Assembly (NCBI GenBank): GCA_947038195.1
Contig: CAMQVI010000001.1
Span: 62,001-126,000, forward strand
Origin: an uncultured Brevinema sp.
GTDB taxonomy: Bacteria > Spirochaetota > Brevinematia > Brevinematales > Brevinemataceae
Direction: 5' to 3'
Length of the DNA stretch: 64,000 nucleotides
The translations under genes were made by a program, and so were the position numbers. The notes beneath the pieces were generated by a model. It made no database searches. It worked only from the letters and a program-made list of their open reading frames with translations, and was not told the DNA's origin. The stretch's first letter is position 1; the number at the start of each line of letters is the position of its first letter. Of the stretch, positions 10,179-41,634 are shown piece by piece.

Positions 10179-10422
10179 TCTTTTATAGGAATTTTATGCC
10201 ATCATTATATACGATTATATTAAGATAAGTCAATAGTAAGCTATTACTATTATTGTAATTAATGATAAATTAAAACTATCTATGTGTTTTTTTAAAGATA
10301 AAATTTCGTACGCTTATCATATTCTTTATACTTCTAATTATTGGTTATTTCAATCAAAATAGTCCCAATCACGATATATAAGTATCACAAGGGGATTGAT
10401 ATTGGGAATTGTTTAAAATTAA

Positions 10423-10462
10423 AAAAAGCAAATCTTGATATTTTCAAAATTTGCTTTTTTTG
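10423..10462 (-). terminator. Terminator after tRNA-Leu
   Basis: AAAAAAAGCAAAT...ATTTGCTTTTTTT inverted repeat just downstream of the tRNA. Confidence 0.7.
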
Positions 10463-10481
10463 TACCTTGATAGGCAAGCTG

Positions 10482-10562
10482 TACCCGGAGTGGGACTTGA
10501 ACCCACACACCAAAGGCGGCAGATTTTGAGTCTGCTGCGTCTACCAGTTCCGCCATCCGGGC
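10482..10562 (-). tRNA. tRNA-Leu (CAA)
   Basis: Reverse complement GCCCGGATGGCGGAACTGGTAGACGCAGCAGACTCAAAATCTGC...GGGTTCAAGTCCCACTCCGGGTA; anticodon loop CTCAAAA; cloverleaf with a variable arm. Confidence 0.93.
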
Positions 10563-10610: not shown

Positions 10611-11372
10611 TTACTCTTTCCCTATAAAATAATAAGCTGCTCCAAGACTGGAGCCACCTACAATATTTCCAAAAGTAGACCAAAAAAGGTTGTAAGAAAT
10701 CCCCACTAAAGAGACTTCGGTGCCCCCTGAGAGAAGGTAACTCACGGTAAATAAGGACATATTGGCGATACTATGTTCGTAGCCAGAAGTGATAAAAGCA
10801 AAGAGACACCAAAAAATCATAATAAGTTTAGCTCCCTCCTCTTTTAGACGTATATAACAGAGAGTTGCTAAACAGACAAAAATATTACAGAGCACTCCTT
10901 TAAAGAAGATAGCAGTGGGGGTAAGAGATATTTTCATTTCTGAATAAGAAACCATAAAGTCGCCTACATCTCCAGCCCCTGATTGAGAAAGTACAAATAA
11001 AGTTCCAATGAGTATAGCTCCTATGAGATTGCCTAAGTAACTGGTACCCCATATTTTGATGAGGTCAAGGATAGAAGTCTTTTTACTAAGGGTGCTAGCT
11101 ATCATAACAAGGTTAGTTCCTGTGAAAAGCTCAGAGCCAGCCATAACAACGAGACTTAAAGCCATTCCAAAAGATAAGCCCATAAAAATACGGTAATGTC
11201 CCGCTCCACTTATTTTAGTGATAGAGCCTACTATCATAATGAGGAATATTGCTAATCCTACATAGGCACCTGCTAGTAGAGATGCCATAAGATATTTTGA
11301 AAAGCTTGTATTGTAGAGATTGGTCTTTGCTAGAGCATTATTAATGAGTTTTTCTAGAGTTTCTGAATACAT
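10611..11372 (-). CDS. focA: Formate/nitrite transporter family protein (FocA-like)
   Basis: FNT-type polytopic protein (SELFTGTNLVMIAS, WGTSYLGNLIGA), next to pflA/pflB. Confidence 0.85.
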   Translation of the reverse strand: MYSETLEKLINNALAKTNLYNTSFSKYLMASLLAGAYVGLAIFLIMIVGSITKISGAGHYRIFMGLSFGMALSLVVMAGSELFTGTNLVMIASTLSKKTSILDLIKIWGTSYLGNLIGAILIGTLFVLSQSGAGDVGDFMVSYSEMKISLTPTAIFFKGVLCNIFVCLATLCYIRLKEEGAKLIMIFWCLFAFITSGYEHSIANMSLFTVSYLLSGGTEVSLVGISYNLFWSTFGNIVGGSSLGAAYYFIGKE

Positions 11373-38292: not shown

Positions 38293-38970
38293 TTATTTTA
38301 AGATGCTTTTCTTTTCTCCACTACCTAGAGTGATACCAATAGTTATAGCTGTGTTTATTCCTATTGACAAAAAATGGCTGGTATTTATTTCAGCTTTGTT
38401 TCTCCATCCTATCGTAAATCCACTATCTGTCATATATTGTATGCCTGGAAGTATATAGTAGGTTCCGAAAGAGAAGTCATTATCCCCTTCGAGAGCAGGT
38501 GCTCCATTAAGATAATATTTATTATCAGTAGCTCCAAAAGCTACACCAACTCCAAGTATATCAAACATTAATCTCCCTGATTTTAATTGACGTCCTAGGG
38601 TGTATGCCATCGCAAATTCACCGTACATTTTTTCGAAATTTTGATCATAAATCTTGTCGTAGTCGCCTTTTAGAAAACTCATGGAAAAACTAGCTCTCAT
38701 GTCAAAACCGTGTACCGTATGATTTTCACGAACACTATGAAAAAGATAGCCTACTTCTGCTGTAAACATCCCTCCACCCAAAGATACTGCTGGTCGTGCA
38801 GGGTGGTGTAAAGGTAACCCAAAGAAATATGTTGTAAAGGCAGATATTTCTCCTCTATCAGATGTTTGGTAGCCACCACCGATATTGATCTGTAGATTAT
38901 GTCTTCCTATTTTAGCATAGGATGTGGTACTCATTAAGAGTAAAGCACATAATAAAGTAAAATTTTTCAT
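38293..38970 (-). CDS. Hypothetical outer-membrane-like protein
   Basis: Signal peptide MKNFTLLCALLLMSTTSYAK and beta-strand-rich pattern. Confidence 0.6.
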   Translation of the reverse strand: MKNFTLLCALLLMSTTSYAKIGRHNLQINIGGGYQTSDRGEISAFTTYFFGLPLHHPARPAVSLGGGMFTAEVGYLFHSVRENHTVHGFDMRASFSMSFLKGDYDKIYDQNFEKMYGEFAMAYTLGRQLKSGRLMFDILGVGVAFGATDNKYYLNGAPALEGDNDFSFGTYYILPGIQYMTDSGFTIGWRNKAEINTSHFLSIGINTAITIGITLGSGEKKSILK

Positions 38971-39197
38971 TCAAAAACCCCTTTTAAATAATTATATTAT
39001 TCATTAGTATAGCTTATATGATAGGGGGCTGTCAATAGTAACAAATGATGTCTGTCATTATAATTACTAAGGAGGGATTTATTTAATAATAATCTATTGA
39101 CAATAAAAGGATATATGAAAGATAAACCACAACGTAAACAAGTGATTACAAATGGATTGATTAAAAGCGTTGGTAAGTATTAATTTTAGTCTTGCTT

Positions 39198-39219
39198 TTT
39201 TTTATGTGTGTGGTATAAT
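39198..39219 (+). promoter_or_regulatory. Promoter of the ncRNA candidate (-35 TTGCTT starts about 39192)
   Basis: TTGCTT - 16 nt - TATAAT(39214-39219). Confidence 0.6.
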
Positions 39220-39226
39220 AATTCAT

Positions 39227-39363
39227 AGGACTGTTACTATATTATAAAAAATAATATCGGTTTGTTTTGTTCTGAGGGGTCATAATTTCCTACACCCTGC
39301 AGGATATACAAACTGCTTTATCCCCCTATATTTCGATTTTGAAGTATGGGGGATATTTTTTTT
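39227..39363 (+). ncRNA. Candidate free-standing structured small RNA (~137 nt)
   Basis: Own promoter; hairpin ATATTAT-AAAAA-ATAATAT (39239-39257); stem CGGTTTGT(39258-39265)/ACAAACTG(39308-39315); terminator ATCCCCC(39320-39326)/GGGGGAT(39348-39354) plus T run; no ORF. Confidence 0.6.
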
Positions 39364-39465: not shown

Positions 39466-41634
39466 TTATACGACGCTATAGAGTAAATCTTCATAGGTGG
39501 GGAGACTCCATTGGTCTCTAGGAATCCATGTTTCTAGGGGGTCTAGGATAGCTCTTAGCTCTTCCATAGTGCTTAAAACACTATCTCTATAATAGAAAGC
39601 TCTTTCTTTATTTTTATGGGTGTTTACGGTGATTAATTGCTCTTCTAGTAGGAGGAGGAGCTGATACATATCTTTAGAGTAGTGGGTGAATTTTAGTAAG
39701 AGGGTTTCTTCTAGGGAGAAATCTAGGGATAGAGATTTTTTGAGGGAGATACTTTCTGCTAGGCTTTTTTGGTAGCGTAGGGTATCTGGGAGGATGTTCT
39801 TTTTAATCATTTCTAATAGGGTTAGAGCCTCTAAACGCACGGTTTTACAATAGGTTTTAAGGAGTAATCCATAACGGGATTCGCTCTCTAAACGGGAAAG
39901 AACATGATGTTTTTCTAATACGGCGATATTATCTTCTTTTATAAGAGCTTGGAGGGCATCGGGGGCGTTTTTATTGATGGAGAGGCCTCTTTTTTGAGCT
40001 TCTTCTTCCCACTCTTTAGAGTAGTTGTTGCCGTTGAATATGATTTTTTTATGGGTTTTAATGGTATCTTTAATGAGTTTTTGTAAATCTTCGGTGAAGT
40101 TAGTGCTTTTTTCTAACACCTCGGTAAAAGATTCTAGGGATTCTGCTACAATGGTATTGATAATCCAGTTAGGGTGAGCGATGGATAGGGCAGAGCCTAC
40201 CATTCTGTACTCAAATTTATTGTTGGTGAAGGCAAAGGGGGAGGTACGATTTCTATCGGTGACATCTCTAGGGAAATGGGGTAGGGTAGAGACGCCGATT
40301 TCTAATTTTTGTTTTTTATCGCCACAATAAGGGGTGTCGTTTTCTATGGCTTCTAAAATGGCTGTTAATTCATTTCCTAGAAAGATAGAAATAATAGCGG
40401 GGGGAGCTTCGTTCCCTCCTAGTCTATGGTCATTAGCTGCGGTGGCTACGGAGGCTCTTAAAAGGTCTTGATAGCTATCCACGGCTTTAATCACTGCCAT
40501 AAGAAATAGTAAAAATTGAGCATTGTCTTGAGGGGTGTCACCAGGGTCTAGGAGATTATGTCCTGTATCTGTAATCAAAGACCAGTTATTATGTTTACCA
40601 CTGCCATTGATTCCTGCAAAAGGTTTTTCGTGAAGAAGACAGGCTAATCCATGTTTATCAGCGATATCTTGCATGAGCTCCATGGTGAGCTGATTATGGT
40701 CTGTGGCAATATTAGCCGTCTCAAAGAGAGGGGCTAATTCGTGTTGGGCAGGGGCAACTTCGTTATGTTGCATTTTAGATAGTACCCCTAATTTTAGGAG
40801 TTCCTCTTCTAATTCTTGCATAAAGTCTAAGACTTTGGCTTTAATAGCACCATAATAATGGTCTTCCATATCTTGCCCTTTTAGAGCCTTAGCTCCAAAT
40901 AAAGTGCGGCCACAATGCAAAAGGTCTGGGCGAAGGAGAAAGAGCTCCTTATCCACTAAAAAGTACTCTTGTTCGGCTCCTACGGTGGGGATTATTTTTT
41001 GTACGTCTTTATGCCCAAAAAGTTTTAGGATACGTTGAGCTTGTTTATCTATGGCTTCTAAGGATCTAATGAGGGGGGTTTTTTTATCCAAAGCTTCGCC
41101 AGCATAAGAACAAAACATTGTAGGAATACAAAGGACATTATCTTTAATAAAAGCATAGGATGTAGCATCCCAAGCGGTGTATCCTCTCGCTTCAAAGGTA
41201 GTTCTCAAGCCTCCGTTAGGGAAACTAGAAGCATCGGATTCTCCTTTTACTAACTCTTTTCCTGAAAAGGATAGTAAAACGCCGTGATCTCCATCAGGCA
41301 CAATAAAACTAGTATGCTTTTCTGCTGTAATACCTGTCATAGGCTGAAACCAGTGGGTGAAATGGTAGGCTCCATTTTCTATAGCCCAATTTTTCATTGC
41401 CTCTGCAATGATATTAGCCATATCTAAACTTAAAGGAGATCCCATTAGTAAGGTTTTTTTGAAAGAGGCAAATATCTCTTGGGGGAGCATTTCTTTCATT
41501 ACTTTTCCATTGAAAACGTTAGTCCCATATAATTCTGTGATATTTTTAGGCATAGAATCCTTATTTTCACTCACTAGTAGTCTCCTTGATGGTTTTTCAT
41601 GTGATATTATAGACGATTGTTTGTTTTTTATCAA
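39466..41634 (-). CDS. glnN: Type III glutamine synthetase
   Basis: YHFTHWFQPMTGITAEKHTSF, NGGLRTTFEARGYTAWD, VGAEQEYFLVD, KHNNWSLITDTGHNLLDPG. Confidence 0.95.
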   Translation of the reverse strand: MIKNKQSSIISHEKPSRRLLVSENKDSMPKNITELYGTNVFNGKVMKEMLPQEIFASFKKTLLMGSPLSLDMANIIAEAMKNWAIENGAYHFTHWFQPMTGITAEKHTSFIVPDGDHGVLLSFSGKELVKGESDASSFPNGGLRTTFEARGYTAWDATSYAFIKDNVLCIPTMFCSYAGEALDKKTPLIRSLEAIDKQAQRILKLFGHKDVQKIIPTVGAEQEYFLVDKELFLLRPDLLHCGRTLFGAKALKGQDMEDHYYGAIKAKVLDFMQELEEELLKLGVLSKMQHNEVAPAQHELAPLFETANIATDHNQLTMELMQDIADKHGLACLLHEKPFAGINGSGKHNNWSLITDTGHNLLDPGDTPQDNAQFLLFLMAVIKAVDSYQDLLRASVATAANDHRLGGNEAPPAIISIFLGNELTAILEAIENDTPYCGDKKQKLEIGVSTLPHFPRDVTDRNRTSPFAFTNNKFEYRMVGSALSIAHPNWIINTIVAESLESFTEVLEKSTNFTEDLQKLIKDTIKTHKKIIFNGNNYSKEWEEEAQKRGLSINKNAPDALQALIKEDNIAVLEKHHVLSRLESESRYGLLLKTYCKTVRLEALTLLEMIKKNILPDTLRYQKSLAESISLKKSLSLDFSLEETLLLKFTHYSKDMYQLLLLLEEQLITVNTHKNKERAFYYRDSVLSTMEELRAILDPLETWIPRDQWSLPTYEDLLYSVV

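Follow-up and report, generated by a model that had tools for sequence, protein, structure and literature searches.

Among described RNAs, the closest parallel in proposed action to the element studied here is RepG of Helicobacter pylori, which base-pairs with a G-repeat in the leader of the tlpB mRNA and whose targets have been tested (PMC8295292). As that source presents it, RepG is a free-standing small RNA that pairs with an mRNA leader; here, the pairing region would be a pyrimidine-rich loop (UUUCCU) in a candidate small RNA from a genome in which no Hfq was found, and the likeness is one of proposed action, not of homology. A second comparison concerns the ornate RNAs GOLLD, ROOL and OLE (PMC12286853), since a many-copy RNA found alongside homologues of the element is likewise intricately structured and without an assigned function. 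Compared with these RNAs as that source presents them, the many-copy RNA is about 300 nt long, reaches up to 37 copies per genome, occurs in one family here and is unmatched in Rfam. The third is NsiR1 (RF02399), the best family by E-value in a permissive Rfam search of the element (E-value 0.21): both have a terminator hairpin with a C/G stem and a U-tract, but the similarity of the element is limited to the terminator and scores 18.3 bits against a cut-off of 39. The literature searched held no account of small RNAs from Brevinema-like spirochaetes.

The window, by which we mean the whole 64,000-nt stretch of DNA analysed, belongs to a spirochaete genome assembly (G000; 2.03 Mb, 114 contigs, about 89% complete), and its glnN is 75% identical to the glnN of a metagenome-assembled genome named uncultured Brevinema sp. 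Three further genomes (G001, G002, G003) are of the same genus and one (G004) is of a sister genus. The element lies in the plus strand of a 495-nt gap that separates a minus-strand ORF, for which no Pfam match was found, from glnN. The features of the locus are as follows.

38293-38970, minus strand: upstream ORF, OMP-like by eye, with a signal-peptide-like start
39192-39219, plus strand: putative promoter, with TTGCTT (39192-39197), a 16-nt spacer and TATAAT (39214-39219)
39226-39363, plus strand: small RNA of about 137 nt, its start predicted from the promoter and its end from the terminator
39239-39245/39251-39257, plus strand: marginal AT-only hairpin ATATTAT/ATAATAT
39257-39360, plus strand: region with homologues in the genus (blastn and covariance model R1)
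39258-39315, plus strand: hairpin I, predicted fold of -21.4 kcal/mol, with the 13-nt loop CAUAAUUUCCUAC (39281-39293)
39306-39317, plus strand: ATACAAACTGCT, fully complementary to the conserved AGCAGTTTGTAT strand of the many-copy RNA
39313-39322, plus strand: conserved linker CTGCT..ATC between hairpin I and the terminator, (nearly) invariant in six copies
39320-39363, plus strand: intrinsic terminator, with ATCCCCC (39320-39326), GGGGGAT (39348-39354) and U8 (T8 in the DNA, 39356-39363)
39447-39418, minus strand: glnN's own terminator
39466-41634, minus strand: glnN, type III glutamine synthetase, convergent to the element

The sequence-only reading had described a complete non-coding transcription unit at this site, and the parts that it named (TTGCTT-16-TATAAT, the hairpins, the terminator and the U-tract) are all in the sequence at 39192-39363. 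The structure of the element and its terminator are demonstrated: the predicted 139-nt transcript folds at -44.2 kcal/mol, compared with -25.2 +/- 3.4 for dinucleotide shuffles (z -5.6; 0 of 200 shuffles equally good), and the terminator, in a region with 4 terminator-like sites against 0.9 expected, is the best-supported part. The arms of hairpin I, CGGTTTGT (39258-39265) and ACAAACTG (39308-39315), enclose GGGGT/ACCCT and CTG/CAG pairs. The completeness of the unit is less firm on the promoter side. The -10 hexamer is perfect and, preceded by TGG, forms an extended -10, whereas the -35 is weak, with TTGCTT matching 3 of 6 positions. The window holds 7 instances of TGnTATAAT where shuffled sequence predicts 7.0, so the promoter is not significant alone and transcription from 39192-39219 is something that we infer. 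The hairpin ATATTAT/ATAATAT, also part of the earlier description, is present as sequence but marginal as structure, appearing when a 147-nt stretch is folded optimally and missing from the optimal fold of the 139 nt.

A coding function was rejected, as the element holds only ORFs of 21-28 codons, none of them gene-like, in agreement with the earlier reading. Rfam 15, searched at curated gathering cut-offs over the whole window, returned two tRNAs only; the element matches no family, which bears out the earlier failure to recognise 6S, SRP, tmRNA or RNase P by eye. The 6S RNA model (RF00013) had no match in the element or in its own genome, where a very divergent 6S RNA elsewhere is not excluded. 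No similar sequence was found in phage records, and pattern searches of viral contigs found nothing.

Comparison with related genomes, which the sequence-only reading had proposed as a check, uncovered relatives of the element. With the window sequence alone as query, blastn gave matches in two congeneric genomes, G001 and G002 (E 1e-8 to 3e-5): G001:C132 at 9.7e-9, with 69% identity over query positions 73-192, G001:C96 at 1.2e-7, G002:C9 at 1.2e-5 and G001:C75 at 3.2e-5. The reciprocal query from G001:C75 recovers the window element at 4e-5. A covariance model, R1, built from only three sequences (the type-1 trio of window, C132 and C75), further matched C204 (2.9e-8), C76 (2.9e-4) and C38 (0.0023) of G001, plus weaker sites in that genome. 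By this model there is one copy in G000, that of the window, about ten in G001 and one in G002 (C9), with no copy in G004 or most of the order and none convincing in G003 or outside the genus. Two weak R1 matches in G007 (best 0.015) were discounted, the better one being a GC-rich terminator-like hairpin that matches both strands.

The type-1 trio shares the hairpin-terminator fold, with three pairs changed on both sides; these compensatory pairs of hairpin I (GC/AU, CG/GC and UA/AU), coming from three sequences, are suggestive and not proof. The order of hairpin, linker and terminator is kept in 8 of the 9 modules folded, the exception being the C76 copy, which gives no clean fold. Loop positions AT.A.TTCCT..A are invariant in all three type-1 copies. 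The linker CTGCT..ATC and the terminator ATCCCC/GGGGAT, both features of the R1 module, are present in the window element; the modules of C52 and C67 have a variant linker and terminator, and CTGCTA is retained in diverged modules. The module was not found in the 296 nt beyond glnN in G002. Going by these sequence comparisons, the window element is the lone copy in its own genome of a genus-restricted module and not an isolated oddity, and it is not a conserved syntenic housekeeping RNA. That it is a real RNA element of the R1 module family, whatever its mechanism, is very probable, and its homologues set it apart from a chance hairpin.

Position behind the many-copy RNA is usual, although not universal, for R1 modules. 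The module lies closely behind this larger RNA in C75, C96, C204 and C52 of G001 and in C9 and C67 of G002, and in G001 C3 the tail behind the larger RNA is shortened. At one locus (L120, G001:C76) the larger RNA's promoter and 5' part are fused directly to the module, and at another (L021, C132) the module stands behind an ankyrin gene and an apparently truncated 3' end of the larger RNA. The window module is alone, as the model of the many-copy RNA core (R2) finds no copy there. HMM comparison detects no homology between the element's 5' part and the larger RNA's 5' end; the likeness suspected by eye between the element's 5' half and the many-copy RNA's promoter and 5' end (GTTACTAT) found no support there and was dropped. 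The earlier description of a free-standing structured RNA gene is supported, with no Rfam family, with homologues that carry compensatory changes and with neither an ORF nor a neighbour to account for it; elsewhere, the module is usually the 3' tail of the many-copy RNA. Overall the observation is confirmed and its first interpretation partly supported.

The promoter of the many-copy RNA is close to consensus, most copies having TTGACA and TATAAT about 17 nt apart; the RNA itself has a closing helix P1, assigned by eye, and two interleaved helices, A and B, that form a pseudoknot. Helix B pairs GCTCATAGCAGTTTGTAT with ATACAAACTCTATGAGC. The sequence of helix A varies among copies while its arms stay complementary: over 40 copies, the mean pairing score is 28.3 with a copy's own partner and 13.7 with the partners of other copies. 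Searches with R2, which was calibrated with a poor RNAalifold structure and acts mainly as a sequence profile, found 12 copies in G000, 37 in G001, 28 in G002, 3 in G003 (one of them weak, 0.006) and 1 in G004. The other 16 genomes had no copy, confining the RNA to one family among those searched, and no Rfam family matches it. The copies in G000 are at C44:15183-15306 (L136), C14 (L141), C46 (L145), C8 (L148), C72 (L150), C42 (L153), C32 (L156), C21 (L160), C3 (L163), C88 (L164), C40 (L165) and C71 (L166).

An ORF preceded by a Shine-Dalgarno sequence begins within 450 nt downstream of 10 of 31 copies of the many-copy RNA, with a lipoprotein-type signal start in 8 of the 10; such an arrangement is seen, for example, at L145, L153, L134, L135, L140, L147, L161 and L165. 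Some of the many-copy RNAs could be leaders or attenuators. At two loci a PF00589 tyrosine recombinase gene adjoins R2 matches (L170:27-1073 beside 1252-1377; L171:10784-11821 beside 10412-10535 and 10689-10807), and a general association with integrases was rejected, with strong R2 matches at 2 of 20 integrase loci. The 3' flanks at L123, L126 and L107 carry GGTCTAGATATTTCTAT or close variants, which are nearly antisense to GATAGAAATATTTAGA, a conserved sequence in the RNA core; it looks as though the 5' pairing strand had been placed downstream.

Our preferred reading, held tentatively as a whole, is that the element encodes a real small RNA, about 137 nt long, that belongs to a genus-restricted module and acts in trans by loop pairing, independently of Hfq. 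The transcript would run from the promoter at 39192-39219 to its own terminator, and the exposed loop CAUAAUUUCCUAC would pair in trans with Shine-Dalgarno or start regions of mRNAs, the UUUCCU within it being able to pair with a Shine-Dalgarno sequence. Pairing would proceed without Hfq; this is proposed because a search of G000 gave no Hfq match, and the absence of the gene is not certain because the genome is about 89% complete. The target test covered the ORFs of the window, comparing their start regions with internal coding sequence against 200 shuffled loops. The window loop favours start regions over internal sequence, with 5 of 200 shuffles as good, a weak and post hoc signal. The same test on homologous loops, which are not independent of one another, gave 10 of 200 shuffles as good for C76, 18 of 200 for C132 and 92 of 200 for C75, and the type-2 module, which is without the UUCCU loop, has no start-region preference. 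Both neighbours are poor targets for the loop (-6.8 kcal/mol for the OMP-like gene, -4.0 for glnN), and no specific target emerged among the window's ORFs. The chance frequency of the promoter motif, the single copy in G000, the lack of synteny and the three-sequence basis of R1 count against a trans-acting small RNA, which we nevertheless place slightly above the next explanation. The element is new as a family and ordinary in kind.

Nearly as likely is that the element is a relic, either what remains of a many-copy RNA after internal deletion or a solo 3' tail that recombination left behind. In that case the terminator would be its only working part, the promoter would have arisen by chance, and it would have no target. 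Most of the homologous modules form tails of the larger RNA, the fusion at L120 resembles an intermediate on such a path, and the module behind the ankyrin gene at L021 could be a simple terminator. To these can be added the resemblance, by eye, of both hairpin I arms to the strands that form helix B in the larger RNA, the chance frequency of the promoter motif and the single, non-syntenic copy. However, compensatory changes keep hairpin I despite sequence divergence, the linker and loop are conserved, and a perfect -10 stands just upstream, all of which count against a relic. The 5' part, in addition, bears no detectable homology to the larger RNA's 5' end, and the core model misses the element too.

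An unlikely alternative makes the many-copy RNA itself the target: the right arm of the element, AUACAAACUGCU, would pair with the conserved AGCAGUUUGUAU strand and displace pseudoknot helix B. The 12-mer ATACAAACTGCT occurs 7 times in G000, once in the element and in 6 copies of the many-copy RNA, all of these antisense, while the reversed control occurs 0 times; pairing could extend to 15 bp at -20.2 kcal/mol, and the persistence of CTGCTA in diverged modules would fit such a role. Strand exchange is nevertheless not favoured, because each partner is already held in a helix about as stable as the new pairing or more so: hairpin I (-21.4 kcal/mol) holds the arm, and the target strand's own helix has -18.8 to -24.0 kcal/mol. 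The modules at L102, L022 and L023 fail to match this strand in the many-copy RNA next to them, and if the arm descends from a helix B strand, shared ancestry would account for the complementarity with no function needed. More doubtful still is the fuller form of this idea, in which the element, having become detached, would be the trans-acting partner of a Brevinemataceae RNA class not described before and would set the fold of that class's copies via AGCAGUUUGUAU; if true, it would concern an RNA class whose helix varies by copy yet stays self-complementary.

Two further explanations carry little weight. A role in cis, as leader, attenuator or riboswitch for a gene downstream, is suggested by the succession of hairpin and terminator, and by the larger RNAs, about a third of which precede a gene, mostly of lipoprotein type; it is very improbable here, since the upstream ORF is on the minus strand, no plus-strand gene lies downstream and glnN is convergent with its own terminator, all of which supports the earlier conclusion that the element is neither leader nor trailer of a recognisable neighbour. 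Least probable is a divergent housekeeping RNA (6S, SRP, tmRNA or RNase P), which a small, free-standing RNA present once in G000 might resemble, but which is at odds with the lack of any Rfam match at cut-off (the best by E-value, NsiR1, falling well short), with the lack of conservation outside the genus and with a copy number of zero to about ten per genome.

Returning to the trans-acting small RNA that we favour, the element is a defined and testable candidate for such a molecule in these spirochaetes, and tracing it led to a many-copy RNA with an unusual helix that is variable and at the same time strictly complementary. This many-copy RNA, with its variable, covarying helix, is a more interesting object than the element itself and merits a study of its own.
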